From Deltaproteobacteria bacterium (GTDB taxonomy: Bacteria > Desulfobacterota > BSN033 > UBA1163): a stretch of 64,000 nucleotides of DNA. The notes under the pieces are model-generated. The model had not been told where the DNA came from. It saw only the letters and a list, made by a program, of their open reading frames with translations, and searched no databases. Numbering within the stretch: the stretch's first letter is position 1; each line of letters begins with the position of its first letter. Where the stretch lies: contig VGRY01000004.1 of NCBI GenBank assembly GCA_016875195.1, positions 1 through 64,000 on the forward strand, in the 5' to 3' direction. The position numbers were made by a program, and so were the translations under genes. Below, one piece after another: positions 39,100-57,806 of the stretch.

Positions 39100-39999
39100 A
39101 TGGATCCGGTCATGACTAAAGGTGAATTCTTTTCAAAAATCCGGGAAGGAACTCTAAATTTCTCTCCGAAGAACAAGGCCCTTGCAAACTTTGTGGTTCA
39201 GAACTACCAGAGGGTGGCCTTCATGACCGCCCGACAGTTGGCTCAACGATGTGAGGTGAGCGAGTCGACGGTCATGCGCTTTGTCACCTCTCTCGGTTAT
39301 ACCGGGTATCCGGATTTTTTAAGGACCCTTCAGGGGATCGTCAACTATGAACTGACGGCGGTCGAGAGGCTTGAAATTACTCCGGAGGAGAAGAAGGGAA
39401 GGCCGAGAAAGTCGGGGACCGAACGTCTTGTCAAAAAAACAATCCTGACCGAGGTCGAGAATCTCCGAAGACTGTATGATCATTTCTCAGAGGAGGATTT
39501 CGATCGGGCGGTGGAGGAAATCGTCAAAGCCAAGCGGATCGTGGTTATTGGTTTTCGAGTGTCTGCCTCCCTGGCGATGTTTTTTGGATACCTTCTGAAA
39601 AAAGTGAAGGAGACCGTGATCGTCCTGACCCAGAGTGGATCGACGGTGTACGATCAACTCGGCTCCCTCGAGAAAGACAGCTTGGTCATCGCCCTTGGCT
39701 TCCGGAGATATCCGAATGAACTAATCGAAGCGCTGAAATACTGCAAGAGTCGCAACCTTAAGGTTTTGGCCGTGACGGACAGCATGGTGTCTCCGGTGGC
39801 TGCGCTGGCGGATTTAATTCAGGTGGTCGAATACGAAGGGGAGTCCTTTGTGGATACCTTCGCCGCTCCCATCTGTCTGATCAATGGCCTGATTGCCGAA
39901 GCGGCGATGAAGGATAAGAAAAAGTCCCTGGGAATGCTCAACAAGCTGGAAAAGATAGCCGAAGAAAAGAAGATCTATTATCAAGAAAGTCTGCGATAA
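39100..39999 (+). CDS. RpiR/MurR-family transcriptional regulator
   Basis: The 299-residue protein has an N-terminal HTH (about 25-75; TARQLAQRCEVSESTVMRFVTSLGY) and a C-terminal SIS domain (about 130-265; VVIGFRVSASLAM, VLTQSGSTVYDQL). The SIS domain normally senses sugar phosphates or amino sugars. A KKGRPRKSG insertion separates the two domains. It lies between the divergent glutamine-synthetase-like operon and the microcompartment operon and is the most likely regulator of one or both. Its effector would be a useful clue to the pathway's substrate. Confidence 0.85.
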   Translation: MDPVMTKGEFFSKIREGTLNFSPKNKALANFVVQNYQRVAFMTARQLAQRCEVSESTVMRFVTSLGYTGYPDFLRTLQGIVNYELTAVERLEITPEEKKGRPRKSGTERLVKKTILTEVENLRRLYDHFSEEDFDRAVEEIVKAKRIVVIGFRVSASLAMFFGYLLKKVKETVIVLTQSGSTVYDQLGSLEKDSLVIALGFRRYPNELIEALKYCKSRNLKVLAVTDSMVSPVAALADLIQVVEYEGESFVDTFAAPICLINGLIAEAAMKDKKKSLGMLNKLEKIAEEKKIYYQESLR

Positions 40000-40114
40000 G
40001 AGAGAGATTTTAACGTTTGGTATAGACCTTTCCAGGGAGCCGCCCGCCTGGCCACGTCATTTTGGCCGATGATGTCTAGGACTTCTAAATCAATATCCAC
40101 GGCCAAAAAAAAAC

Positions 40115-40143
40115 TTGACAACATTTTCGTTTTATTGTATGGT
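40115..40143 (+). promoter_or_regulatory. promoter of the microcompartment operon
   Basis: A perfect TTGACA (40115-40120), 17-base spacer and TATGGT (40138-40143). The A/T-rich leader that follows includes a small ORF before the first cargo gene at 40314. Confidence 0.65.
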
Positions 40144-40179
40144 GGAAAATATTCATATTATTTTTTAAATGGAGGAAAA

Positions 40180-40272
40180 ATGTCACCTCCGTCGATAGAA
40201 AAAAACTTCATCCCCGTTACAAGCTTCGATGGAAGCAGAGCCCGGGACAGGGCACACAACGGGGCTTTCTGA
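40180..40272 (+). CDS. possible 30-residue leader peptide
   Basis: A 30-codon frame (MSPPSIEKNF... to TGA at 40272) has GGAGG four bases before the ATG and sits in the 5' leader of the microcompartment operon. The peptide has no recognisable domain. It could be a translated leader used for attenuation or a chance ORF. Confidence 0.3.
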   Translation: MSPPSIEKNFIPVTSFDGSRARDRAHNGAF

Positions 40273-40313
40273 CGAGGCATACGGCCAGGGAGAAAGGAAA
40301 AGGGGTGAAAAGC

Positions 40314-41597
40314 ATGGAAAAGGAGAAAATTGATTCGATCGTCAAGGCGGTGGTTGAGGAGCTCGGCAGGAGGGGACAGACGGGGACAGGTTCTGGATCA
40401 TCCCCTTCTCCGCCTCCGGTGAAAAAGAATAAACTGAAGATCGCCGTCCTCGGGGCCGGCAATAGTGGAAACGCCATGGCCGGTCATCTGGTCCTCAAGG
40501 GATTCCCGGTGAACTTCTGGAGTTTTTTCGATTTCGAGCTTTCGCCGGTCGTTCAGAATGGAGGAATCCGGATGGAGGGACAGGTCGCCAGCGGCCTGGC
40601 TAAGCCGGAGATAGTCACCAATTGCCTCGATAAAGCGGTCAAAGGCGTTGATCTCATCATGATCAATACGCCCGCGACGGTGCACCGGACGCTGGCTTCG
40701 ATTCTCTGCGGGCTTCTTCGGGACGGCCAGATTATCGTCCTCAACCCGGGTCGGACGGGCGGAGCTCTGGAATTTGCGAGAACGCTGAAGCGTTACGCCA
40801 TCCGCGCCAAAGTATTTTTGGCCGAAGCCCAAACCTTTATTTATGCGGCAGAGTTGAGAGGTCCCGGGGCCGTTGAGATTCTGAAAGAGAAGAATAAGAT
40901 GCGGGTGGCCGCCCTTCCGGCGAAAGACAATCGTTGCGTGATGGATACCCTCGTCCAGGTTTATCCCCAGATCGAAGCGGCTCAGAATGTCCTGGAAACG
41001 AGCCTCAATAATGTCGGACCCGTCAACCACCCCGCGCCGATGCTCCTCAATACCTCGATTATTGAGCGGTCGGCAGCAGGAGAAGATCTCCGGTTCTACC
41101 GGGATCTGATCACCCGGCCCATCGTCGAGATGGTGATGGAGAAGATTGACGATGAAAAAGTTTCAATCACAAAGGCCTTTGGCTTGGACGCCTGGACATG
41201 CCTGGACTGGTATCGCGAGAGTTACGGGGTGACCGGGCCCAGCCTCTACGATGTGTACCATAACAACCCCTATTATCTCGGATTTCATGCTCCCACGGAT
41301 ATCCTGCAGCTGAATAATATTCTCGATGAGGTTCCGAATAGCCTGGTTCCTTTGGCCTCTTTCGGTGACCTGATGAACATCGATACCCCTGCCATTGACA
41401 GCTTGATCAATCTCGCTTGTACCATGATCGATATTGATTTCTGGTCTGAAGGAAGGACGGTCGAATCTCTGGGACTGGGGAAGAAGTCGCCGAAAGAGAT
41501 CCTTCAGTTTGTTGAAGAGACGGACCCCTTCGGCCGTTGCAAGGAGGGAAGGCTCTGCAGATCGATCTCCTGGACACAGAACGGGGTATTGCGGTGA
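40314..41597 (+). CDS. opine dehydrogenase-family NAD(P)-dependent oxidoreductase with encapsulation-peptide-like N-terminus
   Basis: The protein has 427 residues. Residues 5-20 form an amphipathic helix (KIDSIVKAVVEELGRR), then a Gly/Ser/Thr/Pro-rich linker to about 38, the layout of microcompartment encapsulation peptides. A Rossmann domain follows (VLGAGNSGNAMAG near 45-57). The C-terminal octopine/nopaline dehydrogenase domain includes the N-H-P-A-P-M-L-L-N block (near 237) that holds the family's catalytic His. Family members reversibly condense an amino acid with a 2-oxo acid using NAD(P)H. Here it may instead open an N-substituted amino acid to an aldehyde, or recycle NADH. It is first in the operon. 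ATG 40314 is chosen over a GTG at 40305; AGGGG lies upstream. Confidence 0.85.
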   Translation: MEKEKIDSIVKAVVEELGRRGQTGTGSGSSPSPPPVKKNKLKIAVLGAGNSGNAMAGHLVLKGFPVNFWSFFDFELSPVVQNGGIRMEGQVASGLAKPEIVTNCLDKAVKGVDLIMINTPATVHRTLASILCGLLRDGQIIVLNPGRTGGALEFARTLKRYAIRAKVFLAEAQTFIYAAELRGPGAVEILKEKNKMRVAALPAKDNRCVMDTLVQVYPQIEAAQNVLETSLNNVGPVNHPAPMLLNTSIIERSAAGEDLRFYRDLITRPIVEMVMEKIDDEKVSITKAFGLDAWTCLDWYRESYGVTGPSLYDVYHNNPYYLGFHAPTDILQLNNILDEVPNSLVPLASFGDLMNIDTPAIDSLINLACTMIDIDFWSEGRTVESLGLGKKSPKEILQFVEETDPFGRCKEGRLCRSISWTQNGVLR

Positions 41598-41659
41598 GAG
41601 GAAACAGTCCGCAACAGTAACGAACGAGCTTTTGAGTTGAATCGAAAAGGAGGTTTCAT

Positions 41660-41947
41660 ATGGTCGAAAAGGGTTTTGTGGCACTGGGTTTAATCGAGAC
41701 AAGGGGATTGGTGGGGTCAGTGGAGGCAGCAGATGCCATGGTCAAAGCCGCCAATGTGCGCCTGATCGGGAAGGAGAAAGTGGGCGGCGGCTATGTCACG
41801 GTGATGGTCCGTGGTGATGTGGGAGCCGTGAAAGCGGCCGTCGATGCGGGTGCCGCAGCTGCTAAGCGGGTTGGCGAGCTTGTTTCCGCCCATGTCATAC
41901 CGAGACCCCATGATGATGTGGAGATGATTCTTCCAAAAGCCGGGTAA
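41660..41947 (+). CDS. BMC-H shell protein, copy 1
   Basis: The 95-residue single BMC domain opens [26 protein letters not shown] with the hexamer hallmark and [23 protein letters not shown] in the middle. It forms hexamers that tile the shell facets. It is very similar to the second BMC-H gene at 44649 (mainly changes in the pore-side KEKVGGGYV versus KEYIGNGYV segment and the tail), so it is a recent duplication. AAAGGAGG precedes the ATG. Confidence 0.95.
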
Positions 41948-42067
41948 CCCCGGAAGCCGGAGAGAATCCGTATTGCTGAATGGCCGAAGAGAGAGCCCTT
42001 CGAAGGCTTCAGATGGGCTTAAGCCTTCGACGATCTCAGGTCTGCCATTCCTAGGAAGGGGAATGTC

Positions 42068-42388
42068 ATGCTGATGGGTAGAGTGGTAGGTAAGGTTTGG
42101 TCTACCCGTAAGGAGAATCGAATTACGGGTTTAAAACTGCTCATCGTCCAGCCCCTCGACCACCTGCAGAGACCCTATGGAAATGTGATCATTGTTGGAG
42201 ATCAGATCGGAGCGGGGATTGGAGAACAGGTGGTCGTCGTTCAGGGAAGTTCTGCCCGAACGGCAATCCCAGAGCTGGAACTTCCTGTGGATGCCGTGGT
42301 GATAGGGATCATCGACAATATTGAGCTGGACGAGAGGCAGTACCAGACCGGAGACAAGGCCAACCTGAAAAAGGGACTTGAGAAGTGA
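42068..42388 (+). CDS. BMC-P (EutN/CcmL) pentameric vertex protein
   Basis: The 106-residue protein begins MGRVVGKVWSTRKENRITGLKLLIVQP and contains DQIGAGIGEQVVVVQGSSAR, the EutN/CcmL signature. Pentamers cap the shell vertices, so a single copy suffices. GGAAGGGG lies upstream; a second in-frame ATG is six bases inside. The stop overlaps the next gene's GTG by four bases (GTGA). The 120 bases before it hold a possible stem (CCTTCGAAGG region) but no ORF. Confidence 0.95.
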   Translation: MLMGRVVGKVWSTRKENRITGLKLLIVQPLDHLQRPYGNVIIVGDQIGAGIGEQVVVVQGSSARTAIPELELPVDAVVIGIIDNIELDERQYQTGDKANLKKGLEK

Positions 42389-43704
42389 AAGAGATTGTCT
42401 CCAAGGTACGAGAGGCCGGCGTCGTCGGCGCGGGAGGGGGAGGTTTCCCAACCCATGTGAAGATCGACACGTCGGTCGATGTTGTCCTGGCGAATGGGGC
42501 CGAGTGCGAGCCTCTGCTGCACTGCAATCAAGAACTCATGAACCGGGAAGCGGGGAAAATCCTGGAAGGGCTTCGGTGGGTTCGGGAGGCAACCAGCGCA
42601 AAGAAGGCTCTTGTCTGCCTGAAAAAGAAATACGAGAAGGCGATCGAGGCATTCAGAGCGCACGGAGGGGGAAAAGAGTTCGAGCTCTTTGTGATGGATG
42701 ATTTCTATCCGGCGGGTGATGAATTTTCTCTGGTTTATGAGGTTACCCGGAGGCAGGTCCCTGAGGCGGGAATTCCTCTCATGGTGGGCGTTGTGGTCAG
42801 CAACGTGGAGAGCCTGTATAACATCGCCAGGGCAATGCAAGGGATTCCCGTCACCGAGAGGATGCTGACCGTCGCCGGAGCGGTTCGAAAACCCGTGAGC
42901 CTCAACGTTCCCATAGGAATATCCGCAGAAGAATGCATTGTCTTGGCCGGCGGGCCCACGGTTGACGAATACCGCATCCTTGCCGGAGGGCCCATGATGG
43001 GAAAATTGGTGGAGCCCGACTACCCCGTCCAGAAGACCACAAGCGGGATCGTGGTACTTCCCTCTGATCATCCGGTCATTCAAAAAAAGAGGCTGGACAT
43101 TAAGGACATCGTGCGAAGAGCCAAAGCCGCCTGCATCCAGTGCTTTTCTTGCACAGAAATGTGCCCTCGCTACCTTTTGGGTCACCGATTGGAGCCGCAT
43201 AAGATCATGCGATCTACCAGTTATGGCCGGGCCGATACAGATATCTTGACCCAGGCCATTCTCTGCTGCGAATGCGGCGTCTGTGAGCTCTTTGCCTGCC
43301 CCATGTTCTTGTCCCCCCGGGAGATGAATGCCCTCCTCAGGAAGAAATTTGGAGAGCAAGGAGTGCGATGGCCTGGACCGAAGAGAGAATGCGAGACCTA
43401 TTCAACCAGGGAGGGGCGAAAAATCCCGATCGGCCGCCTGGTCGGTCGTTTGGGTATCAAAGCGTACGATCTCCCCGCTCCCTTTACAACGATAAAACAA
43501 GCTCCTGATCGCGTCACAATCCCGTTAAGCCAGCACACGGGGGCGGCGGCCATTCCAGTCGTGAAGGTGGGCGACCGGGTTGAAGCAGGGCAACCGGTGG
43601 GGGAAATTCCTGAAAAGAAACTGGGGGCAAGGGTTCATGCCAGCATCCGGGGCAGAGTGACACAAGTAGGCAAGACGGTCGTCATCGAGGCCATCAAGAA
43701 TTGA
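42385..43704 (+). CDS. PduS/RnfC-like flavin and 4Fe-4S protein
   Basis: This 439-residue protein has the RnfC/PduS N-terminal nucleotide-binding block (GVVGAGGGGFPTH, LANGAECEPLL) and a central SLBB-like region. Two 4Fe-4S motifs follow: CIQCFSCTEMCP near 248-259 and CCECGVCELFACP near 290-302. The C-terminal biotinyl-lipoyl-like domain contains VGDRVEAGQPVGEI. PduS uses FMN and Fe-S clusters to pass electrons from NADH. Here it probably reoxidises NADH made in the lumen and works with the neighbouring BMC-T protein that can hold a cluster at its pore. No B12 enzyme is present, so cobalamin reduction is unlikely to be its role. Confidence 0.9.
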   Translation: MKEIVSKVREAGVVGAGGGGFPTHVKIDTSVDVVLANGAECEPLLHCNQELMNREAGKILEGLRWVREATSAKKALVCLKKKYEKAIEAFRAHGGGKEFELFVMDDFYPAGDEFSLVYEVTRRQVPEAGIPLMVGVVVSNVESLYNIARAMQGIPVTERMLTVAGAVRKPVSLNVPIGISAEECIVLAGGPTVDEYRILAGGPMMGKLVEPDYPVQKTTSGIVVLPSDHPVIQKKRLDIKDIVRRAKAACIQCFSCTEMCPRYLLGHRLEPHKIMRSTSYGRADTDILTQAILCCECGVCELFACPMFLSPREMNALLRKKFGEQGVRWPGPKRECETYSTREGRKIPIGRLVGRLGIKAYDLPAPFTTIKQAPDRVTIPLSQHTGAAAIPVVKVGDRVEAGQPVGEIPEKKLGARVHASIRGRVTQVGKTVVIEAIKN

Positions 43705-43725
43705 GAGCGCCGATAGGAGAGAGCC

Positions 43726-44277
43726 GTGGCAGAAAAAGCGGTAGGGCTCGTTGAATTCATCAGTATTGCCAGAGGGATCGAGGCCACGGATGAAATGGTT
43801 AAAGTGGCCGAGGTCAATCTCCTTCTGTCAAGGACCATTTGCTCGGGAAAATACATCACCCTGATCGGCGGAGATGTCGGCGCTGTGGAACGGGCGATCG
43901 ATACCGGGGTGAAAATTGCCGGTGAGACCTTGGTCGACCAGTTTATTCTTCCCAACGTCCATCCCTCGGTCATTCCCTCAATTACGGCCACAACACCCAT
44001 TGAGGACCTGAGATCACTGGGGATCATCGAAACCTTTTCCGTCGCCGCCAGCATCGTGGCGGCGGACACAGCCGTCAAAGCCGCTTCCGTCGATCTGGTT
44101 GAGATACGGGCGGCCATTGGTCTGGGCGGAAAATCCTTTGTCATTTTGAACGGAGATGTGGCCGATATTCGGACCGCTGTGGAACGCGGTGAGGAGAGGG
44201 CTCGGAAAGAGGGAACCCTGGTCTACAGCATTGTGATCCCGGCCCCACGAAAAGAGCTGCTTGACGCGCTTTTATGA
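43726..44277 (+). CDS. PduT-like tandem BMC-T shell protein with pore cysteine
   Basis: The protein has 183 residues in two BMC domains (about 1-90 and 95-183). The first domain has Cys39 in RTICSGKY at the position where PduT places the cysteine that binds a 4Fe-4S cluster at the trimer pore. The second begins LRSLGIIETFSVAASIVAADTAVKAA. A cluster here would make the shell electron-conducting, consistent with the adjacent PduS-like gene. The GTG start has AGGAGAGAG upstream. Confidence 0.9.
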   Translation: MAEKAVGLVEFISIARGIEATDEMVKVAEVNLLLSRTICSGKYITLIGGDVGAVERAIDTGVKIAGETLVDQFILPNVHPSVIPSITATTPIEDLRSLGIIETFSVAASIVAADTAVKAASVDLVEIRAAIGLGGKSFVILNGDVADIRTAVERGEERARKEGTLVYSIVIPAPRKELLDALL

Positions 44278-44305
44278 GTCTACGGCTTGAGAAAGGAAAT
44301 GAGAG

Positions 44306-44602
44306 ATGAAAGAGCTGATTACTGCAGAAATGGTCAGAGAGATGGCAGCCAAGAGCCTGAAGCAGATTTTCGTCTCCTCCAACACGATCATGACTCATGC
44401 CGCCCGTGATCAGGCCGCAGAGCTGGGCCTTGAGGTTGTGGAGGGAGTTTCTGCTGCTTCCGCCTCCGAAGGAAAGGACTTGAAGGGGATCCGGGATGCG
44501 GTGGTCCAATGCCTGAAAGACGAATTCAAAGATCAGCCTCTGAATGAGGAGACGGTAAGGACGATTGTGAAGAGGGTGATTGACAGGCTGGGGTGTGGGT
44601 GA
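44306..44602 (+). CDS. small microcompartment-associated protein
   Basis: The protein has 98 residues. The N-terminal part (ITAEMVREMAAKSLKQIFVSSNTIMTHAARDQAAELGLEV) resembles short segments found in several metabolosome accessory proteins, but I cannot name it. The C-terminal LNEETVRTIVKRVIDRL is an amphipathic helix like those that bind shell proteins, preceded by a charged linker. It may be lumenal cargo or an assembly factor. It is not PduL, lacking that family's His-rich zinc motifs and length. Confidence 0.55.
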   Translation: MKELITAEMVREMAAKSLKQIFVSSNTIMTHAARDQAAELGLEVVEGVSAASASEGKDLKGIRDAVVQCLKDEFKDQPLNEETVRTIVKRVIDRLGCG

Positions 44603-44648
44603 GCGGGATAGGGCAAATCCGGTGAGATTTGATTAAGGAGGGTTTTAT

Positions 44649-44939
44649 ATGAAAGACGTGGCTTTGGGGTTGGTTGAAACGAAAGGATTGGTCGGATCCG
44701 TTGAAGCGGCGGATGCCATGGTGAAGGCCGCCAATGTACGCCTTGTGGGAAAAGAGTATATTGGAAACGGGTATGTGACGGTCATGGTACGGGGAGACGT
44801 AGGAGCGGTCAAGGCGGCTGTTGATGCGGGAGCAGCAGCGGCAAAGAGAGTGGGAGAGCTGATATCCGCCCATGTCATTCCAAGACCTCATGACGACGTG
44901 GAGACGATTCTGCCAGAGGGGAGCAAGAAAGAAGGTTAA
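44649..44939 (+). CDS. BMC-H shell protein, copy 2
   Basis: The 96-residue BMC-H paralogue of 41660 shares its N- and C-terminal helices almost exactly, but with [13 protein letters not shown] in the pore region and a different tail (EGSKKEG). Two hexamer types with different pore loops probably give different small-molecule permeability. AAGGAGGG precedes the ATG. Confidence 0.95.
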
Positions 44940-44956
44940 ATCAGAAAGAAGCCGGA

Positions 44957-45856
44957 ATGGACCTTCGGGGAGAGAATAAAGGCTACCCTTATCCACTGGG
45001 AGTTCTTCAACGGATAGAAAAACTGGCTGACCGGATGAATCGTCCCAGTCGATGGCTCCTTCCCGAAGGGAGACCGGAGCTCTTCGTCGGCGTGGATTTG
45101 GGGACGAGTTATGTGGTGGTGGTCGTGGTCGATGATCAGGGAGATCCCGTAGGAGGCATGATGCAATTTGCGACGATTGCACGGGAAGGTCTCATCCTCG
45201 ATTATCTTGGGGCCATTGAGATCGTCAAGGGGATGGTGGAAAGTTTACAAAAGGGATTAGGAATTCAGTTAGGGTATGCGTCCACCTCTTTTCCACCGAA
45301 GACCGAATCCGCCAATATCCGGACCACCCAATATGTCGTCGAGTCCGTCGGGATGAAGGTGTTGAAGATTGTGGATGAGCCCTCTGCCGCCAATCGCCTT
45401 TTAAACGTTCAAAACGGAGCTATCGTGGATATCGGCGGCGGAACAACCGGGATTGCCGTCGTTGAGGACGGGGAAATTATTTATACGGGAGATGAGCCCA
45501 CCGGAGGAACTCATCTCAATCTGGTCATTGCCGGAAGAAAAAAAATCTCATTCGAAGAGGCGGAGTCTTACAAACTCGAACATCAAGCAGAGACCCTGGA
45601 GATCACCCTTCCCGTCATTCAAAAGATGGCCACCATCGTTCGGGATCACATCGGTGACCGGAGAGTGGAGGTCGTCCATCTCGTCGGAGGGACGAGCGGC
45701 CTTATCGGGATGGAGAAGGTTGTGGAGGAGGAGCTGGGCATTCCAGTCGGAAAGCCCAGTCATCCCCAGCTGGTTACTCCGTTAGGGATTGCCATCGCTT
45801 GTACGGAAGAAAGATCGGTTCAGTCGGGCCGTCGAGAACCCCTTCGGTCCGTGTGA
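44957..45856 (+). CDS. EutJ-like actin-fold ATPase
   Basis: The protein has 299 residues. Actin/Hsp70-fold phosphate loops are visible: GVDLGTSYVVVVVVD near 47-61 and VDIGGGTTGIAVVEDG near 157-172, followed by VHLVGGTSGLIGMEKV. EutJ is the ethanolamine metabolosome chaperone-like protein; its exact job is unknown, probably assembly or reactivation of cargo. The family member here confirms the metabolosome nature of the operon although no EutBC is present. Its stop overlaps the ribosome site of the next gene. Confidence 0.85.
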   Translation: MDLRGENKGYPYPLGVLQRIEKLADRMNRPSRWLLPEGRPELFVGVDLGTSYVVVVVVDDQGDPVGGMMQFATIAREGLILDYLGAIEIVKGMVESLQKGLGIQLGYASTSFPPKTESANIRTTQYVVESVGMKVLKIVDEPSAANRLLNVQNGAIVDIGGGTTGIAVVEDGEIIYTGDEPTGGTHLNLVIAGRKKISFEEAESYKLEHQAETLEITLPVIQKMATIVRDHIGDRRVEVVHLVGGTSGLIGMEKVVEEELGIPVGKPSHPQLVTPLGIAIACTEERSVQSGRREPLRSV

Positions 45857-45864
45857 GGAGCGTC

Positions 45865-46170
45865 TTGGTCAAAAAGCAAGAAAAGAGCCGAAAATCAAAA
45901 ATGCCGTCTCGGGAAAAAACCAAGGAGTTGTCCCGGAAAATGACGGAAGGTCTCCAAAAAGAATTGGATGGACTTGTCTCCCCAATCTCGGTGAGATCAG
46001 AGCGCCAAGGGGAAACGAAAGAACGCCGGGTTGTCGTTGGGGACGAGACTGTCTTTCAGAAATCCGCGGAGGACGAACAGGTTTCGGAAAACAAACAGGA
46101 AGAAGAAAAGGTCAGGCCCGCAAGGAAACAGGTCAATCCTTGGGGAATCGTTATCGGTGAAACAGATTAG
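45865..46170 (+). CDS. disordered, charged microcompartment-linked protein
   Basis: About 101 residues from a TTG at 45865 with GAGGAG just upstream; a longer frame reaches 45799 inside the EutJ-like gene. The sequence is mostly Lys, Glu, Arg and Gln without hydrophobic core, then ends NPWGIVIGETD, a short hydrophobic peptide. A disordered body with a terminal sticky peptide recalls shell-binding or cargo-linking proteins. I know no family for it. It is tightly spaced between the EutJ-like and BMC-T genes (8 bases to the next ATG). Confidence 0.55.
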   Translation: MVKKQEKSRKSKMPSREKTKELSRKMTEGLQKELDGLVSPISVRSERQGETKERRVVVGDETVFQKSAEDEQVSENKQEEEKVRPARKQVNPWGIVIGETD

Positions 46171-46178
46171 GAGAAACC

Positions 46179-46811: not shown

Positions 46812-46845
46812 ATTTCGGTACCATCTTTGAAAGAGGAGAAGATCA

Positions 46846-48264
46846 ATGGGCCTTGATATCAAGCAGATCGATGCGATTGTGGAAAAGATCGTCACTCGCC
46901 TGTCGCAGTCGGAACCCTCTCTTTCATCGGGAATCAAAACAGGAGACGGTATTTTCCAGAATATCGATGAGGCGGTCCGGGCAACCCACCATGCCCAAAG
47001 GGATCTGGTTGAGGGCACCTCGATCGAGAAGCGAAAAGAGATTATCGAAGTCATCCGAAAAGTGGCTCGTGACAACGCCAAAGAGTGGGCGCAGATCGAA
47101 CTCATGGAAGCGGAGATGGGACGGTTCGAAGATAAGGTGAAAAAAATCATTGCTTCTTCGATGGTTCCCGGGATGGAAGACCTGCAGACCGTCGCTTATA
47201 GCGGAGATCGGGGCATGACGATTATTGAAAGGGCTCCCTACGGGGTGATCGGTTCCATCAACCCGATTACCAACGCTATTCCTACCATTCTGTTTAACAA
47301 TATCATGATGATTGCGGGCGGCAATGCCGTCGTTCACAATCCCCACCCCAGGGCAAAGATTTCCTCTGCCAGGGCGATTCAGGCGTTTAACCAGGCCATT
47401 CAAAGCGTTGGAGGTCCCCCTAACCTGACGACGGCCATCGTGGAGCCGACGATCGAATCAGCCCAAGCCCTCATGAAGCATCCTCTTGTCAAACTTCTTG
47501 TGGTGACAGGAGGGCATGGTGTGATTCACGCAGCCCAACAGAGCGGTAAGAAAGTCATCGCGGGCGGACCGGGCAATCCTCCTGCGATCGTGGATGAGAC
47601 CGCGGACCTTGAAAAGGCGGCCCGATTTATCGTCGAGGGGGCTTCGTTCGAAAATGATACGCCCTGCGCCAGCGAGAAAGAGATTATCGCCGTCGAAAGC
47701 GTCGCGGATGAGTTGAAGGTTCAACTCAAGAGAAACGGGGCCTATGAAATCAACGCCCATCAACTCGACCAGCTTGTCTCCAAAGTCTTTCGCGAGGTCC
47801 GTGGCCCTGGAAAGGCTGGTTTGATCAATTATGACTATATCGGGAAAGATGCCGGAGTCCTTTTGGGCCTGATTGGAGTGAAAGGGGCCGAGGATGTTAA
47901 GATTGTGTTTGCAGAGACAGACCGCCATCATCCGCTGGTCTGGACGGAACAGTCCATGCCTCTTCTTCCATTCGTGAGGGTGAAGGACGCCGAAGAGGCG
48001 ATGGATTTAGCCATCGAGGTGGAACAGGGTTTCGGCCACACCATCGTCATCCATTCCATGGATATGGAAAGACTCAGCCGGATGTCCAAAAGAGTGGAAG
48101 CCGCAGTTTTAGTAAAAAATGGATCATCCCTTGCGGGTGTAGGAGTCGCGGGAGAGGGTTTTATTTCATTTCACATTGCCACAGGAGCTGAAGGCCACAC
48201 TTGTCCAACTCTGTTTACTCGACCCCGTCGATGTTGCATGGTGGACTTCTTCAGGCTTAAATAG
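46846..48264 (+). CDS. CoA-acylating aldehyde dehydrogenase with encapsulation-peptide-like N-terminus
   Basis: The protein has 472 residues. The N-terminal KQIDAIVEKIVTRL helix (about 6-19) and a polar linker (SQSEPSLSSGIKTGDG) match an encapsulation peptide, and the PduP/EutE-type fold follows. Landmarks are SINPITNAIPTILFNNIMMIAGGN near 137-160 and the catalytic Cys274 in ENDTPCASEKEI. It oxidises an aldehyde with NAD+ and CoA to an acyl-CoA inside the shell. This is the only canonical metabolosome core enzyme in the locus; no phosphotransacylase or alcohol dehydrogenase is seen nearby. GAGGAGAAG precedes the ATG. Confidence 0.9.
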   Translation: MGLDIKQIDAIVEKIVTRLSQSEPSLSSGIKTGDGIFQNIDEAVRATHHAQRDLVEGTSIEKRKEIIEVIRKVARDNAKEWAQIELMEAEMGRFEDKVKKIIASSMVPGMEDLQTVAYSGDRGMTIIERAPYGVIGSINPITNAIPTILFNNIMMIAGGNAVVHNPHPRAKISSARAIQAFNQAIQSVGGPPNLTTAIVEPTIESAQALMKHPLVKLLVVTGGHGVIHAAQQSGKKVIAGGPGNPPAIVDETADLEKAARFIVEGASFENDTPCASEKEIIAVESVADELKVQLKRNGAYEINAHQLDQLVSKVFREVRGPGKAGLINYDYIGKDAGVLLGLIGVKGAEDVKIVFAETDRHHPLVWTEQSMPLLPFVRVKDAEEAMDLAIEVEQGFGHTIVIHSMDMERLSRMSKRVEAAVLVKNGSSLAGVGVAGEGFISFHIATGAEGHTCPTLFTRPRRCCMVDFFRLK

Positions 48265-48306
48265 GCACTGTCTTTTGGCCTCTCATTTTCCAGGGGTTTC
48301 TGTTTT

Positions 48307-49044
48307 ATGAAAAGGAAAGTTCCAATCGGACTCCTTGTGACTCTGGAAGATGGAAATGATTCTCTGACCAATCCCCGGCCTGTGGAAGTCGCAGGTGGGT
48401 TCCCCGTGCTTATTCCGTATTTTGTAAAGATGGAGACCATCCGGTCTCTCCCCGACCTGGTCGGAGGCCTGATCTTGGCCGGGGGAGGGGATGTGGATCC
48501 CCGTCATTATGGCGAACTTCCCCACCCGAAGCTCAAAGAGGTCGAGCCTCTCAGGGATTCTGTAGAATTGAAAATCGTCCGGGAGGCTCTGGAAAGAGGC
48601 TTGCCGATCCTCGGAATCTGCCGGGGCATCCAAACCCTTAATGTCGCGGCAGGAGGGACACTGTTCCAAGACATCCCGAGTTTCATCTCTACCGATATTG
48701 AACATTCTCAAGATTGGGAATCGGCACTCGATCCCGAAACTTCCCAACAGCACCATCCGATTGAAATCGACCTTTCGAGCCACCTTTTTAAGATGGTTGG
48801 AGAGAAGTCGATCATGGTCAACAGTTTTCATCATCAAGCGGTCAAAGAAGTGGCTCCGGGGTTCAGGGTGACGGCCAGGGCGCCGGATGAGGTGATCGAA
48901 GGGATTGAAAGTGTTCGCCACTCTTTTGTAATCGGGGTTCAATGCCATATCGAACTCCTCTGGGCTAAAGATCCCCGTTGGTTCAACCTTTATCAAACTT
49001 TTGTCAAAGCCTGCGAGGAGTATTATAATTATTTGTGTGAATGA
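48307..49044 (+). CDS. gamma-glutamyl hydrolase (PuuD-like, peptidase C26)
   Basis: The 245-residue class I glutamine-amidotransferase fold has nucleophile Cys105 in GICRGIQTLN, an oxyanion region GGGDVDP near 59-66, and the His/Glu pair in QCHIELLW near 216. In the putrescine pathway PuuD frees glutamate from gamma-glutamyl-GABA. Here it probably removes a gamma-glutamyl group from a metabolic intermediate or end product. With the glutamine-synthetase-like ligase it forms the two ends of a glutamylation cycle. Confidence 0.85.
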   Translation: MKRKVPIGLLVTLEDGNDSLTNPRPVEVAGGFPVLIPYFVKMETIRSLPDLVGGLILAGGGDVDPRHYGELPHPKLKEVEPLRDSVELKIVREALERGLPILGICRGIQTLNVAAGGTLFQDIPSFISTDIEHSQDWESALDPETSQQHHPIEIDLSSHLFKMVGEKSIMVNSFHHQAVKEVAPGFRVTARAPDEVIEGIESVRHSFVIGVQCHIELLWAKDPRWFNLYQTFVKACEEYYNYLCE

Positions 49045-49059
49045 TTAAAGGAGGAAAAA

Positions 49060-49959
49060 ATGTGCGGCATTGCAGGACTGATTGCCCGGGAGAAAGTGGA
49101 TATCGGTCTGACAATCGTAGATATGCTCAATAAACTGAAGCATCGGGGGAGAGATTCCACGGGGTTGGCAGTCTATGAGGACCGAAAGGATATTCAGATC
49201 AAAGTGGCCATGAACAAGGGAGAACTTCAACCCCGTCTCGAATCCATGATATCGAAGTATGGTAAGATCTCGAAGGAGAAGTCCTACCCGAGCATCGGGG
49301 GATATCTCTTCTTCGAAGCTTCCGTTGATATGGATGAAAATAAGATTTCCGAACTCCATAAGGAGATTGACAGAGACCTCGAGCTCTGTGTCCACCACTT
49401 CGGCCGGCGGATCAAGGTTTATAAAGACATAGGGGACGCCGGAGATTTGCAGGGACACTACGATTTTCACGGCATCTATGGAACCCATGGCATCGGCCAT
49501 GTGAGACTGGCCACGGAGAGTGTCGAAAACATCAATTTTGCCCATCCCTTTGTCTCCTACCTCTATTCGGATCTAGCCATCGTCCATAATGGCCAGTTGA
49601 CCAATTATTTCAATATGCGTCGAAAGATGGAGCGCCTCGGGATACAGTTTAAAACCTACAACGATTCTGAGCTGATTGCTCATTATCTGGCCTATCAAAT
49701 GACGGAGCTAAAAAGGGACTTTGAAGGGGCTCTCTGGGGGGGGTTGGAAGTCTTCGATGGTGTCTTCACATTTTTAGCCTCAACGCCAAAATATATCGGA
49801 GTGGTCCGGGACAAGCTGGCGATCAAACCGGTTCTATTCTATGAATCTGAAGACAAGCTTTTCTTGTTCGGGTCAGAGCAAACCTGCATGGCTCCGGTCA
49901 GGGAAGACATTTTTGCGACGGAAATGCATCCGGGAGGAGTAAGGGTATGGTCCATCTGA
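49060..49959 (+). CDS. class II glutamine amidotransferase (GlxB/MgsA-like)
   Basis: The 299-residue protein starts MCGIAGLI, exposing the catalytic Cys at residue 2 after Met removal. The amidotransferase blocks HRGRDSTGLAVY, HGIGHVRLATES and AIVHNGQLTNY follow. In N-methylglutamate synthase and GlxBCD-type enzymes this subunit hydrolyses the amide and feeds ammonia or an amine to the FMN subunit. AAAGGAGG lies upstream. The stop overlaps the next gene's ATG by 13 bases, typical of these three-gene sets. Confidence 0.9.
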   Translation: MCGIAGLIAREKVDIGLTIVDMLNKLKHRGRDSTGLAVYEDRKDIQIKVAMNKGELQPRLESMISKYGKISKEKSYPSIGGYLFFEASVDMDENKISELHKEIDRDLELCVHHFGRRIKVYKDIGDAGDLQGHYDFHGIYGTHGIGHVRLATESVENINFAHPFVSYLYSDLAIVHNGQLTNYFNMRRKMERLGIQFKTYNDSELIAHYLAYQMTELKRDFEGALWGGLEVFDGVFTFLASTPKYIGVVRDKLAIKPVLFYESEDKLFLFGSEQTCMAPVREDIFATEMHPGGVRVWSI

Positions 49960-50645
49960 ACATCAAGGGAATGAAGAGCCGGGAAGTCAATCGAAAGTTG
50001 AGGGAGCTCGTTTTGAAGGAGAAAGAGATCTTCATCGAACACCCGGATTCGATCCATAATTTCGCCACGGCTCTCAAGGGCGACGGGAAGGTTGTTGTCC
50101 GGGGGAGCACGGGGTTTTACACCGGGGGATTTCTGGAAGGCCCGACCTTGATCATTCAAGGCAATACAGGTTTGTACACGGGCGATAATATGATGAGGGG
50201 GATGATCCTCATCGAAAAAAACAGCGGGAGCAACGTGGGACCCTCCATGATCGGCGGAACGATTGTTGTGAAGGGCCACTGTGGAAGTTGGGCTGGCTTC
50301 GGGATGAAAGGGGGAACCCTCCTGATTTGCGGCAATGCCGGAATGTGGACCGGGAAAATGATGCTCGGGGGTCGAATCATTGTTCTCGGCTCGATGGGGA
50401 TGGGGACGGGCGATTCGATTTACAACGGCGTCATTCATACCCTGGATAGAGATGTCGAAAAAAAGTTGGGCAGCAATGTCCAGGTTGTTTCCATCTCTCA
50501 AGAAGAGAAAGAAGAGGTCCATAAGCTCCTTGAACGTTACGGCATAAACCGAAACATTCGGTTGGATGACCTGAAAAGTGTCGTTCCAAAAGTATATGGT
50601 CGCCATGAATATGTATTGTTTAAGCCCACGCATCTTGGGAGATAG
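49947..50645 (+). CDS. GltB C-terminal-type GXGXG subunit (GlxC/MgsB-like)
   Basis: The 232-residue protein has the right-handed beta-helix GXGXG repeats of the glutamate synthase alpha-subunit C-terminus (GSTGFYTGGFLEG, GNTGLYTGDNMMRG, GNAGMWTGKMMLGG). It is the structural subunit linking amidotransferase and FMN parts of a heterotrimeric N-methylglutamate synthase/GlxBCD-like enzyme. It overlaps the amidotransferase gene and is followed by the FMN subunit 15 bases later, so the trio is complete. Confidence 0.9.
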   Translation: MVHLNIKGMKSREVNRKLRELVLKEKEIFIEHPDSIHNFATALKGDGKVVVRGSTGFYTGGFLEGPTLIIQGNTGLYTGDNMMRGMILIEKNSGSNVGPSMIGGTIVVKGHCGSWAGFGMKGGTLLICGNAGMWTGKMMLGGRIIVLGSMGMGTGDSIYNGVIHTLDRDVEKKLGSNVQVVSISQEEKEEVHKLLERYGINRNIRLDDLKSVVPKVYGRHEYVLFKPTHLGR

Positions 50646-50660
50646 GAATGGAGGTATCCC

Positions 50661-51959
50661 ATGGCAAAAGAAGACAAGGATGAAACAAGAGAAATAGGAA
50701 GGGAAGTGAGAGGGGTTTGGACTAAGGAGGTCGTCCGGGAAATAAAACAGAAAGCAGAAACAGGAAGGCACTTGATTCGAGGCTGTGGAACAACTCGCAG
50801 GCTCCCTCATTTTGATGATCTCGTCATAATGGCCTCTCAACTCTCGAGAATGGCTATTGATACTTATCGAGAGGATTGCAATACCAAAACCGTCTTGGGA
50901 AAGAGGGTTGCCAAAGAACCTCTGGTGATTGAGACCCCCATCATGATTTCCGGTATGTCTTATGGAGCCTTGAGCAAAGAAGCTAAGATTGCGATGGCCA
51001 AAGCCACGTCTATCGTGGGGACATCGATCAACAACGGTGAGGGAGGCCTGCTTCCGGAGGAGCGCGCCAATTCCTACAAGGAGGTCGTCCAAATCTTGCC
51101 CAGCCGGATCGGCTTTTCTTTAAGAAATATCGAAGCAGCCGATGCCTTGGAGATTATCTGCGGCATAGGGGCAAAACCTGGGCTCTCCGGCCATCTCATG
51201 AAGGAAAAGATTACAGAAGAGATCGCAAAATTCAGACAACTACCACCAGGCATAGATCTCCATAGCCATCCAAGACACGGAGATATTTATGGAGCAGATG
51301 ATCTGATTCTGAAGATTGAAGAGTTAAGGGAGATTACAGAGGATAGAATTCCCATTTTTATCAAGATCGCGGCGGGTCGCGTAAACGAGGATGTGAAGAT
51401 CGCTGCCAAGGCCGGGGTGGATGGAATTGTGGTGGATGGTATGGAGGGAGGGACGGGTGCAGCACCTCTCATTGCACTGAATCACCTGGGCATTCCCACA
51501 CTTCCAGCCCTTGTTCAGGCAACGCGGGCCCTTGAGGAAATGGGGTTGAAAGATCAGGTAAGCTTGATCGTTTCTGGAGGTATCAAAGACGGTGCTGATG
51601 TGGCTAAGGCCCTGGCTCTGGGTGCGGATGCTGTAGCCATTGGAACAGGGGCCATGGTCGCCATGGGTTGTACGGTCTGCCTCCAATGCCACAAGGGGGC
51701 CTGCCCGCACGGCATTGGAACTCAGAGGGAAGACCTCAGGGCTAAACTTGACGCCGAGGAGGCTGCCATTCGAGTGGCCAACTACATCAAAGCCATGACT
51801 TATGAGCTAGTCATTCTGACAAAGGCCGCCGGAAAGACCGACGTTCACTCATTGGAGAGAGAGGATGTGCGTGCCCTGACTCTGGAAGCGAGTTTAACCA
51901 CAGGAATTCCCCTGGTTGGAACGAATTTTGTCTTCGGAGACCGGTTTGGGTATATTTGA
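50661..51959 (+). CDS. FMN-binding glutamate synthase-domain subunit (GlxD/MgsC-like)
   Basis: The 432-residue TIM-barrel protein of the glutamate synthase central domain has PIMISGMSYGALSKEAK near 93, VDGMEGGTGAAPL near 260, SGGIKDGADVAKALALGADAVAIGTG near 307, and cysteines CTVCLQCHKGACPHGIG near 339-355 that bind an Fe-S cluster. Relatives in methylotrophs transfer methylamine to glutamate to form N-methylglutamate. Whether this enzyme uses 2-oxoglutarate and ammonia or an alkylamine cannot be read. It completes the three-subunit set. Confidence 0.9.
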   Translation: MAKEDKDETREIGREVRGVWTKEVVREIKQKAETGRHLIRGCGTTRRLPHFDDLVIMASQLSRMAIDTYREDCNTKTVLGKRVAKEPLVIETPIMISGMSYGALSKEAKIAMAKATSIVGTSINNGEGGLLPEERANSYKEVVQILPSRIGFSLRNIEAADALEIICGIGAKPGLSGHLMKEKITEEIAKFRQLPPGIDLHSHPRHGDIYGADDLILKIEELREITEDRIPIFIKIAAGRVNEDVKIAAKAGVDGIVVDGMEGGTGAAPLIALNHLGIPTLPALVQATRALEEMGLKDQVSLIVSGGIKDGADVAKALALGADAVAIGTGAMVAMGCTVCLQCHKGACPHGIGTQREDLRAKLDAEEAAIRVANYIKAMTYELVILTKAAGKTDVHSLEREDVRALTLEASLTTGIPLVGTNFVFGDRFGYI

Positions 51960-51972
51960 GATGGAATCAGCC

Positions 51973-52611
51973 ATGAAGGAGACGCTGGATCTAAGAGCCT
52001 ATTTCTATTTAGACAGGATGCAGCTGCAGGTGGCTGCTTATATCGGGTCAACGGCATCGGGGTTTTTACCCATTGCTGGCGTCGCTTCTCTGTTTATCGA
52101 AGTCCGACCGGGCATGGCGATCAACAACCTCACGGATATTGCCGTGAAGAAATCCGATGTAAAACCAGCCATGCAGATTGTTGAGAGGCAATATGGTCTT
52201 CTTGAGATCCACTCTGAGACAATGGCAGAAGTGGCTCATGCAGGGACCACTATTCTGGAGGCTCTGGGTTTGCAGGAGCGCGATCGATACAAACCGAATA
52301 TCCTCTCAACCAATGTCATCACTCGTGTGAACGACTACCATTGTCAACTGGTGAATCGACAACGAAGGGATTCCATGCTTCTTGCAGGGCAGACATTGTA
52401 TATTCTTGAGGTGGAGCCTGCAGGATATGCGGTCCTGGCCGCGAATGAAGCGGAGAAATCGGCAGACATTACTCTGATAGAAGTCCGGCCCTTTGGTGCA
52501 TCGGGAAGGATCTACCTGGGAGGTACCGAGGCTGATATCGAGGGTGCAAGCCAAGCAGTCCTTCAGGCATTGAAATCTATTGAGGGAAGAGGGATCAGTA
52601 AGAACGGATAG
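51973..52611 (+). CDS. tandem BMC-T shell protein, copy 2
   Basis: The 212-residue paralogue of 46179 begins with the equivalent MKETLDLRAYFYLD. I chose the ATG at 51973 because it aligns with the paralogue's start; another ATG at 51961 follows the upstream stop by only one base. The position after the GlxD-like gene physically ties the amidotransferase genes to the shell genes as one locus. Confidence 0.85.
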   Translation: MKETLDLRAYFYLDRMQLQVAAYIGSTASGFLPIAGVASLFIEVRPGMAINNLTDIAVKKSDVKPAMQIVERQYGLLEIHSETMAEVAHAGTTILEALGLQERDRYKPNILSTNVITRVNDYHCQLVNRQRRDSMLLAGQTLYILEVEPAGYAVLAANEAEKSADITLIEVRPFGASGRIYLGGTEADIEGASQAVLQALKSIEGRGISKNG

Positions 52612-52622
52612 CATGCGAGAAG

Positions 52623-52640
52623 GATCGAAGGCTCGATCCC
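52623..52640 (+). terminator. short hairpin between BMC-T copy 2 and the amidohydrolase
   Basis: GGATCGA and TCGATCC form a 7-bp stem with a four-base loop. No T-run follows, so it may be an attenuator or processing site rather than a full terminator. Confidence 0.35.
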
Positions 52641-52715
52641 TCCGGTTCTAACCACCGCTTCTCTCGTAAATAGATTTTTTTAGCCATCATCCAAATTAAA
52701 GGGGAGGTGAAAAAA

Positions 52716-54443
52716 ATGGCTAGGCAAGGAAAAGCTGACATAGTCATCACTAATGGCAAAGTCATCACTGTGGATAAAGACTTCAGTATCAAACAGGCTG
52801 TGGCTGTAAAGGGTGACAAAATTGTGGCCGTGGGTACTAACGATGAAATAAACGCCTTTATTGGATCCAATACTAAAATATTAGATCTGAAAGGAAAACC
52901 GATCTTGCCCGGAATCAACGATGCCCATATGCATGCGCCTTTTTTCGGAGCCACCAGGCCGCCGTTGGCCCTTGATCTCACTTATCCTACGGTAAAATCG
53001 ATCCCGGAAATGGTCGAAGCACTTCGCAAGAAAGTCGCAGAGGTGAAACCGGGAGAGTGGATTCGGGGTTTTGGCTGGGATCAGGGTTCTCTCGAGGAAT
53101 GTAAGAATGACCCGACCAGGCTCCCCAGGAAGTGGGACATCGATCCAGTCTCTTCTGATCACCCGGTGGTCTTCACCGATTTCTCGGCCCACACCCTGCT
53201 CGCGAATAGCAAAGCCCTCGAGATCGCTGGAATCAGTAAAGATACTCCTAACCCGGTTTCGGGTGAGATGGAGAGGGATCCAAAGACAGGAGAGCCAACT
53301 GGAATATTCAAGGAGCCGGGTGCACAGGCCCTTGTGTCCGCCCATGTCCCTTTGCTGACCCGGAAAGAAAAAAAGGAAGCAGTTCTCACGGCTCTTCGTC
53401 ACCTCAATGCGAATGGTGTTACGAGCTTTACCGATGCGGCCATCGGTCCAGGCGGCGAGACGTATGTGTACGGTGTGATGAGTGCCGAATTCGTTGATAT
53501 CTACAGAGAGTTGTTGAATGAGGGCAGCTTGACAGCCAGGGTGAACGTTTTGTTGCTTCTGGGCGATTACGGCGCCCTCACCTTAGAGGATTTGAAGAAG
53601 AACATGGAGACATTCAAGGTGCCGAAAGATGTGGACAAGGCGTGGCTCAATTTTCCGGGAGTCAAGATCTTTGCCGATGGTATCCCTCTGACCATGACTT
53701 CTTGGATGAATGAGGATTATGTGACAGGGGGGCGCGGCACCTCCGTGATTCCGGGAAAGACCGATCAGGAACAATGGGATAATCTGACCGAAATGATCAC
53801 CTATGTCCACTCCAAGGGTTATCAATTAGGCGTCCACGCCACGGGCGACAGGGCCATTGATGCCTCGGTGGACGGATTCGTCAAGGCCATTCAAACCATT
53901 CCAGGAGGCGACCCGCGTCATTACCTCATTCATGGAGATTTTATCAGCCCGGAAAAGGCTAAGACTCTGGGAAAATATAACTGTGGGATCGCCATGCAGC
54001 CCTTTATAAGCGTGATGATCTCCGATTTCGAACCTGCAGTGGTGGGCGAAAAGCGGGCAGCCTACGAGTGGCCCACCCGGACGGTCATCGATGCCGGCGT
54101 CAACCTGACAAGCAGTTCTGACGCCCCGGTGACTTATCCCAACTGGAGAATGGGCGTACAGGCGGCTGTCTTAAGAGAGGGTTTAATTTCGGGCAAAGTG
54201 AGTGGCCCGGAAGAATGCATCGCCGTGGAAGAAGCAATTCGAACCTATACGATTAACGGAGCATGGCAGGACCATATGGAAGATGTGAAGGGCTCTATCG
54301 AAGTGGGAAAATTAGCGGATTTCTGCGTCATCGGAGACGACATATTGACCGTCGATCCACACAAGATCGGCGAGATACCCGTTTTGATGACGATCGTGGG
54401 GGGCAAGATCGTCTACGCCGCAGGAGGGAACTGGCTCAAATGA
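52716..54443 (+). CDS. YtcJ-like amidohydrolase
   Basis: The protein has 575 residues. The amidohydrolase N-terminal beta-sandwich (ADIVITNGKVITVD) is followed by the metal HxH in NDAHMHAP near 72, then GVTSFTDAAIG, HATGDRAIDASVDG near 370 and the catalytic Asp in TSSSDAPVTYP near 470. The family hydrolyses amide or N-acyl bonds with a metal. It may release the amine substrate from an imported amide before entry to the shell pathway. GGGGAGG precedes the ATG at 52716, which is preferred to GTG 52707. Confidence 0.85.
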   Translation: MARQGKADIVITNGKVITVDKDFSIKQAVAVKGDKIVAVGTNDEINAFIGSNTKILDLKGKPILPGINDAHMHAPFFGATRPPLALDLTYPTVKSIPEMVEALRKKVAEVKPGEWIRGFGWDQGSLEECKNDPTRLPRKWDIDPVSSDHPVVFTDFSAHTLLANSKALEIAGISKDTPNPVSGEMERDPKTGEPTGIFKEPGAQALVSAHVPLLTRKEKKEAVLTALRHLNANGVTSFTDAAIGPGGETYVYGVMSAEFVDIYRELLNEGSLTARVNVLLLLGDYGALTLEDLKKNMETFKVPKDVDKAWLNFPGVKIFADGIPLTMTSWMNEDYVTGGRGTSVIPGKTDQEQWDNLTEMITYVHSKGYQLGVHATGDRAIDASVDGFVKAIQTIPGGDPRHYLIHGDFISPEKAKTLGKYNCGIAMQPFISVMISDFEPAVVGEKRAAYEWPTRTVIDAGVNLTSSSDAPVTYPNWRMGVQAAVLREGLISGKVSGPEECIAVEEAIRTYTINGAWQDHMEDVKGSIEVGKLADFCVIGDDILTVDPHKIGEIPVLMTIVGGKIVYAAGGNWLK

Positions 54444-57773: not shown

Positions 57774-57806
57774 CAAAAAGACCGACGAAAAATTGGGAGC
57801 GTCCCA

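Follow-up and report, generated by a model that had tools for sequence, protein, structure and literature searches.

A bacterial microcompartment locus with an opine-dehydrogenase-family enzyme and a glutamate-linked amine module: a candidate N-alkyl-glutamate metabolosome

Which enzyme supplies the aldehyde to a bacterial microcompartment (BMC) whose locus encodes a shell and an acylating aldehyde dehydrogenase, and none of the classic signature enzymes? In most of the catabolic microcompartments that are understood, the aldehyde is the product of an enzyme that uses B12 or a glycyl radical, or of an aldolase. The question is raised by a 64,000-nucleotide stretch of DNA (the window) from a Deltaproteobacteria bacterium (GTDB lineage Bacteria; Desulfobacterota; BSN033; UBA1163), which covers positions 1 to 64,000 of contig VGRY01000004.1 in assembly GCA_016875195.1. 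Here a closely packed run of plus-strand genes (39100-59277), from an RpiR-type regulator through a Liv ABC transporter, includes a shell gene set, a CoA-acylating-type aldehyde dehydrogenase (AldDH), an opine-dehydrogenase-family enzyme (ODH) and relatives of the N-methylglutamate synthase genes, with a glutamine-synthetase-like (GS-like) ligase encoded divergently at 37400-38740. We propose that the locus encodes a microcompartment that catabolises a primary amine, or an N-acylated precursor of one, by an N-alkyl-glutamate route with ODH as the lumen oxidase, and we assign this reading a probability of roughly 0.58. Gene content, conservation, family membership, clades and tails resembling encapsulation peptides (EPs) are read from the sequence, and from these we infer all reactions, the substrate and the localisation.

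The co-occurrence of BMC-H (PF00936) and BMC-P (PF03319) genes identifies the locus as that of a microcompartment, and every PF00936 match of the draft genome falls within it. The shell inventory comprises two BMC-H proteins (41660..41947 and 44649..44939; 78% and 72% identical to BMC-H of L055, a related locus described below), a BMC-P pentamer protein of the EutN/CcmL type (42068..42388; 47% to L055), a BMC-Ts with two PF00936 domains (43726..44277; 52% to L055) and two BMC-Tdp proteins (46179..46811 and 51964..52611) that are 77% identical to each other. A preliminary description of the locus had noted a second BMC-T; both of these later genes prove to be of the gated double-layer trimer type, the first by its matches to HO-5816 (E 8e-67), CcmP and CsoS1D. 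The AldDH (46846..48264; PDB relative 5jfl) scores 557 bits against the PRK15398 profile (cut-off 403). By sequence it is a PF00171 CoA-acylating AldDH with an N-terminal encapsulation peptide, IKQIDAIVEKIVTRLS, as scored by an EP profile that was partly trained on this same AldDH. Its Cys motif reads NDTPC, compared with NCMAC and NCTPC in the related loci and NNIIC in EutE. The metabolosome core further includes a PduS/RnfC-like flavo-FeS protein (42385..43704; 52% to L055) and a EutJ-like actin-fold protein (44957..45856; 46-47% to the related loci).

Neither EutB, nor a glycyl radical enzyme, nor PduL/PTAC was found in the host draft genome (4.08 Mb, 187 contigs, 87% complete), while PduCDE, alcohol dehydrogenase and aldolase are absent among the locus genes, no genome-wide search having been made for them. 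Because PduL was not found in the genome and no alcohol dehydrogenase lies among the locus genes, the core enzyme set is incomplete, as in MIC types. Assignments to the EUT, PDU or GRM types were set aside on the negative results for EutB, PduL and glycyl radical enzymes; PduC was not searched.

The proposed lumen signature enzyme is ODH (40305..41597). It scores 117 bits against PF02317 (E 8e-34; cut-off 30) and combines a Rossmann domain with the Octopine_DH helical domain; its closest PDB entry, CENDH (1bg6, E 3e-70), is the sole solved relative found by sequence. The active-site His of CENDH is conserved. The first 40 residues of ODH are an extension, in which residues ~4-24 form an EP-like helix with the core KEKIDSIVKAVVEELG, followed by a linker. 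Scored with a profile made from ten BMC AldDH N-termini, ODH being left out, this N-terminus reaches 8.9, a value matched by 15 of 20000 shuffles of the same stretch. Scores of at least 8.5 occur in 4 of 609 distinct non-AldDH open reading frames (ORFs), namely ODH, a PduD-type dehydratase subunit (PF02288), a known cargo that bears an EP, and two apparently chance cases. By comparison, the highest score at loci of ODH homologues is 3.5, with 24 of 27 loci scored (L002, L003 and L019 being outside this set, and L017, L024 and L025 N-terminally incomplete). The host genome has a second ODH-family gene (contig C14:50398-51507, L021), without an EP-like N-terminus. An AlphaFold model of ODH from a two-row alignment gave a mean pLDDT of 40 and was not used.

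Further insight comes from the relatives of the locus. A search for the AldDH across 395 genomes of the phylum returned the host and nine other genomes, from each of which one region was fetched. The nearest AldDHs belong to one family, f11, comprising three of the five genomes of its class (G142, G047 and G113), and we refer to their loci as sisters. In a 14-row tree with midpoint root, the AldDHs of the window and the sister loci form a 100/99 clade to which neither E. coli EutE nor the remaining BMC AldDHs sampled from the phylum belong. The sister locus of G142 (L055) lies on one contig in the order GS-like ligase, GlxB, GlxC, GlxD, 2Fe-2S protein, pyridine-nucleotide/FAD oxidoreductase, ferredoxin, BMC-H, a second PF00936 protein, BMC-P, PduS, BMC-Ts, EutJ, an EP-bearing protein, BMC-Tdp, an EP-BFD protein, a DAO flavoprotein, BMC-Tdp, RpiR and two AldDHs. 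In G047 the sister gene set is split over two contigs, and G113 contributes a 5-kb fragment with Tdp, RpiR and two AldDHs; at 1e-60 no GlxD match was obtained in the latter genome, which is 76% complete. The linkage seen in the window is preserved in G142 and G047 in a rearranged order, and since these two genomes, of a different class within the phylum, retain most of the genes, the locus is beyond a chance assembly. Re-sampling of the phylum from G142 gave no further members. Between EutJ and BMC-Tdp, L055 (10895-11521) and the sister locus L090 (2718-3515) each encode a protein with an EP-like helix, the L055 version of which has no Pfam match.

The window and its sisters differ in the proposed oxidising enzyme. 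L055 encodes a split enzyme of the sarcosine-oxidase type (Fer2_4, Pyr_redox_2, Fer2_BFD with SO_alpha_A3, and DAO), whose soxA and soxB profile matches lie below the curated cut-offs. Its subunits are 24-30% identical to the Mgd subunits of the reference mgs-gmaS-mgd operon, that of plasmid pAA01 of Aminobacter aminovorans, which has the N-methylglutamate layout of three synthase genes, glnT and four sarcosine-oxidase-type genes (the mgs, gma and mgd names are our assignment; the record is labelled GXGXG, glutamate synthase, glnT and sarcosine oxidase). According to the part of PMC6237917 drawn on here, a methylotroph enzyme of the sarcosine-oxidase class converts N-methylglutamate into glutamate and formaldehyde. 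The L055 A3/BFD protein carries a strong EP match in mid-protein (score 21.5), and because of this match amine oxidation in the sister loci is probably placed in the lumen. The L090 homologue has the same helix, by eye. ODH takes the place of this enzyme in the window: Mgd-like genes of the N-methylglutamate dehydrogenase were not found there, the one exception being a molybdenum-hydroxylase gene (19.7-20.8 kb) whose FAD domain gives a weak match. The N-alkyl-glutamate pathway is supported by the sister loci of G142 and G047, because they share the ligase type, GlxBCD, the shell and the AldDH clade and have an N-methylglutamate-dehydrogenase-class enzyme where the window has ODH. We consider it somewhat better than an even bet that these loci represent a new BMC functional class founded on the opine-like chemistry of N-alkyl-glutamate. 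Two enzymes without common ancestry, an opine dehydrogenase that uses NAD and a split flavoenzyme of the sarcosine-oxidase type, would then interchange as encapsulated signature enzymes behind a conserved gamma-glutamylation and N-alkylglutamate-synthase module.

In the window this module consists of the ligase and GlxBCD, accompanied by a PuuD/SpuA-like gamma-glutamyl hydrolase. The hydrolase, a class I amidotransferase of the Peptidase_C26 family (48307..49044; PF07722 E 2e-60; PDB relatives Lin1909, 7d4r and PuuD), is followed by the GlxB/MgsA-like amidotransferase subunit (49060..49959; 57% to the sisters, 32% to Aminobacter MgsA), the GlxC/MgsB-like GXGXG subunit (49947..50645; 65% to L055, 30% to MgsB) and the GlxD/MgsC-like FMN/Fe-S subunit (50661..51959; PF01645 E 8e-106; 78% to L055, 45% to MgsC). 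GlxBCD are homologous to all three MgsABC subunits and are predicted to form a synthase of that type. GlxD/glutamate-synthase matches occur in 83 of the 395 genomes and, besides the window, exceed 53% identity only in G142 (78%) and G047 (75%), both of them BMC carriers. In a tree of 35 rows, the GlxDs of the window, L055 and L090 form a 100/99 clade nested in a 99/97 clade with Aminobacter MgsC, rhizobial GlxD and related rows. PuuD and GlxBCD are enclosed by the AldDH on one side and a shell gene on the other, with spacings of -13 to 42 bp. On this gene context, the glutamate module is predicted to belong to the compartment. PuuD, GlxB, GlxC, GlxD and the ligase score no higher than -1.0 for an EP within their first 60 residues, which fits the division between cytosol and lumen in the proposed pathway.

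The ligase (37400..38740, minus strand; PF00120 E 8e-107) is a GS-fold protein and the proposed gamma-glutamyl-amide ligase for a primary amine. It is 50% identical to the ligases of the sister BMC loci and 34% to Aminobacter GmaS. Aligned with E. coli GlnA, it lacks both ammonia-site residues, the Asp of the DGSS motif and the Glu of the Glu flap, as does GmaS. Of the catalytic residues Asp177, Glu186 and Arg312 by which GmaS is recognised (numbered by counting along the Aminobacter protein; residue roles from a portion of PMC7948447), Glu186 is retained and Asp177 is replaced by Asn in the window, L055 and L090 ligases, in all of which the pocket residue Gln175 is a Tyr. Because the ligase has neither the residues of the GlnA ammonia site nor Asp177 of GmaS, the substrate is probably not methylamine, and the ligase is likely to act on another amine. 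A plain methylamine pathway was rejected, the ligase residues disagreeing with those of GmaS. The preliminary description had proposed that an amine is loaded on glutamate and oxidised in the shell by the opine-type enzyme; this gains from the sister loci, which share the module alongside an enzyme of N-methylglutamate-dehydrogenase type, and from the EP-like N-terminus of ODH, and it loses the analogy with GmaS at the level of residues. The observation of the locus is confirmed, and its interpretation is partly supported and, on its central point, strengthened.

We envisage the following series of steps. The substrate would be imported by the Liv ABC transporter or an APC permease, and the amidohydrolase encoded downstream may free the amine; that it does so by cleaving an N-acyl compound is conjecture, the nearest solved relatives of this protein being uncharacterised hydrolases. 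In the cytosol, the ligase would join the amine to glutamate as a gamma-glutamyl amide, by analogy with GmaS and methylamine, and GlxBCD would convert the amide into an N-alkyl-glutamate, by analogy with MgsABC, with the PuuD-like hydrolase salvaging stray gamma-glutamyl amides. The N-alkyl-glutamate would then pass into the shell, probably via the gated Tdp pores. In the lumen, encapsulated ODH would use NAD+ to release glutamate and an aldehyde, a step that in the sister loci would fall to the encapsulated flavoenzyme of sarcosine-oxidase/N-methylglutamate-dehydrogenase type. The encapsulated AldDH would turn the aldehyde into acyl-CoA, and PduS and BMC-Ts would export electrons from the lumen. 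The locus would then be a metabolosome with a new chemistry. If this is correct, a shell around N-alkyl-glutamate oxidation represents a new way of forming the aldehyde, which could account for some of the loci that lack a signature enzyme. It would also provide an amine route that needs neither B12 nor radicals and retains the aldehyde. ODH is soluble and probably NAD-dependent, and its encapsulation-like tail makes the proposal directly testable.

The principal alternative keeps ODH in the shell as a recycler of cofactor: the NADH made by the AldDH would be spent on condensing an amino acid with an oxo acid, in place of the missing alcohol dehydrogenase, and the amine oxidase would be encoded elsewhere. 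Opine dehydrogenases recycle NADH in anaerobic invertebrates, and the lack of alcohol dehydrogenase in the locus and of PduL in the genome would suit such a role, as would the other DAO/sarcosine-dehydrogenase-like enzymes of the genome. We nevertheless judge it unlikely. The sister loci have an EP-bearing amine-oxidising flavoenzyme, with no alcohol dehydrogenase seen among the L055 genes, and the DAO enzymes elsewhere in the host reach at most 32% identity over their full length, with no BMC gene in the short stretches around two of them. An improbable variant retains the pathway logic with an amino acid, or the amide of one, as the N-substituent; ODH would then act on a true opine, an N-(1-carboxyalkyl)glutamate, to yield an oxo acid, the AldDH substrate arising by later decarboxylation. 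This agrees with known opine-dehydrogenase chemistry, with CENDH as the sole solved relative found by sequence and with a transporter of the Liv type; against it stand the lack of a decarboxylase among the locus genes and the sarcosine-oxidase type of the sister enzymes, which releases the aldehyde directly in the N-methylglutamate pathway (as given in the portion of PMC6237917 cited above). Very improbable, in our view, is a metabolosome of unknown function that draws its aldehyde from elsewhere and merely adjoins a nitrogen-assimilation operon. BMC types without a signature enzyme are indeed catalogued (MUF, MIC; parts of PMC4207490 and PMC8217296), but the tight enclosure of PuuD and GlxBCD by the AldDH and a shell gene, and the retention of this linkage in the rearranged loci of G142 and G047, speak against this reading.

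Several observations weigh against the proposed N-alkyl-glutamate route with ODH as the lumen oxidase. In the known NAD opine dehydrogenases, the carbonyl partner is a 2-oxo acid and not a simple aldehyde, and the catalytic Asp297 of CENDH aligns with Glu342 of ODH. The N-terminus of ODH has a modest EP score, an unrelated ORF of the window (15461-16099) scoring 9.6. The host genome is an incomplete draft in 187 contigs and contains DAO-type enzymes elsewhere, the best 32% identical to the sister HcnC. Finally, the preliminary description had staked its reading on ODH recurring in shell-linked operons, and no second such locus was found in searches of one phylum with short flanks. Among 297 genomes there is no ODH homologue above 51% identity; the nearest, at 51% (L029; confirmed as the sole such match in repeat contig scans), lacks the N-terminal extension and lies on a 6.1-kb contig with no BMC gene. 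Shell, AldDH and PduS genes are absent from all 27 ODH-homologue loci, within flanks of ~1.5 kb on each side that a more distant BMC locus could escape, and a six-frame search detected no ODH in the nine other AldDH regions (two of them 4-5 kb contigs) or in extra sister stretches. Shell genes, AldDHs and ODH were checked by tblastn, since ORF picking had missed genes beneath longer antisense ORFs. A tblastn search of plasmids with ODH returned 275 records, of which the best 20 are at no more than 32.2% identity.

Compared with known systems, the locus combines features of several. It resembles the N-methylglutamate pathway (gmaS, mgsABC, mgdABCD) in its GS-like ligase and its amidotransferase/GXGXG/FMN synthase trio and, in the sister loci, in a secondary-amine dehydrogenase of the sarcosine-oxidase type; unlike that pathway, the window is linked to a BMC shell and an acylating AldDH, has ODH in place of the sarcosine-oxidase-type enzyme, shares 30-45% identity with it and has Asn for Asp177 in the ligase. 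With the Puu pathway of E. coli (PuuABCD) it would share gamma-glutamylation of an amine, a PuuD-type hydrolase and an aldehyde dehydrogenase, whereas oxidation is here proposed to act on N-alkyl-glutamate after GlxBCD, the AldDH is acylating and a shell is present. The EUT metabolosome likewise has a EutE-class AldDH, EutJ, EutN, a EutQ-N-like start and an amine-derived aldehyde (the last as proposed here), but here EutB was not found in the genome, EutC, EutD, EutG and EutT are not among the locus genes, Tdp pores are present and the AldDH lies outside the E. coli EutE branch. CENDH belongs to the same sequence family as ODH and shares the active-site His, while ODH differs in its encapsulation-like N-terminus, in the Glu at the Asp297 position and in its operon context. 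The nearest catalogued BMC types are the MUF and MIC loci, which, in the portions of the sources used here, likewise pair shell and AldDH with PduS- and EutJ-like proteins and no classic signature enzyme. Axen 2014 describes MUF loci in these terms (part of PMC4207490), with all core enzymes present, unlike the window genome with no detected PduL; Sutter 2021 lists MUF2-3, MIC2-7 and others with no obvious aldehyde-making enzyme (part of PMC8217296), and the main text of that paper, as far as it was available, does not mention octopine, glutamate synthase or glutamine synthetase. Judged by titles, the opening lines of abstracts and, for PMC3751872, PMC7593272, PMC8156839 and PMC12339742, terms within the text, the open-licence papers surveyed describe no such locus; it may stand numbered, with no function attached, in supplementary type tables.

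The remaining genes complete the picture of the run. The shell set, acylating AldDH, PduS- and EutJ-like proteins, ODH, PuuD-like and GlxBCD-like proteins, amidohydrolase and ligase divergent across the regulator were all recovered as ORFs of the families named in the preliminary description. From ODH onward intergenic distances do not exceed 146 bp, except for 322 bp 3' of EutJ, a gap with an uncertain 123-aa ORF (45799..46170) of no family. The regulator (39100..39999; HTH_6 + SIS), 32-33% identical to those of the sister loci, is spaced 305 bp from ODH. A search for regulator sites in the ligase-ODH interval gave weak repeats and nothing stronger, and promoter-like sites number 17, compared with 13.2 +/- 3.3 in shuffles. 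GC content is 54% at 40305-48264, 50% at 48307-59277 and 48% on either flank. A 98-aa protein (44306..44602) has a EutQ-N-like start, with a EutQ match (E 1e-5) below the cut-off, and a C-terminal encapsulation-like helix, EETVRTIVKRVIDRLG, scoring 7.5; by eye its layout resembles that of the EP-BFD-A3 protein of the sisters in its N-terminal half. The run extends past the YtcJ-type amidohydrolase (Amidohydro_3; 52707..54443; PF07969 E 2e-84), the proposed amine-releasing hydrolase, into the Liv-type transporter (SBP, LivH, LivM, LivG and LivF; 54570..59277). Both have counterparts beside the G047 set (68% and 50-68% identity), as farther off do the APC permease (PF13520; 28536-29897, minus strand; 78%) and a DUF3156 protein (PF11354; 27929-28507, minus strand; 56%), which adjoin each other in the G047 island. 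Beside the G047 amidohydrolase and Liv genes (L095) lie a glutamate-dehydrogenase-like gene (8897-10147), a similar one by eye (14166-15416) and a RidA-type imine deaminase gene (1872-2288), fitting for a turnover of glutamate and imine.

Close relatives gave no match to the shell markers (AldDH in none of 7 other genomes of the genus at E 1e-60, BMC-Tdp in none of 9 at E 1e-30), so the locus was probably acquired. A 740-bp direct repeat, 94% identical, at 27097-27835 and 61132-61869 spans the greater part of two alpha/beta-hydrolase genes that are 93% identical, and it brackets the stretch containing the genes shared with G047 (27929-59277); these repeats may delimit an island that was acquired or amplified. 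Directly beyond the Liv transporter lies a minus-strand gene of the ornithine-cyclodeaminase/mu-crystallin family with an in-frame stop (59327-60376). The APC permease and the ligase are separated by a minus-strand block (29981-37363) that encodes USP, DUF1329, DUF1302, MMPL and YCF48-like proteins; compared with the G047 stretches it gave a weak USP match and nothing else. Farther upstream, at 16348-23151, a molybdenum-hydroxylase set (Fer2_2, MoCoBD and an FAD subunit fused to a pyridine-nucleotide oxidoreductase domain) is followed by an AMP-binding ligase and possibly serves aromatic catabolism.

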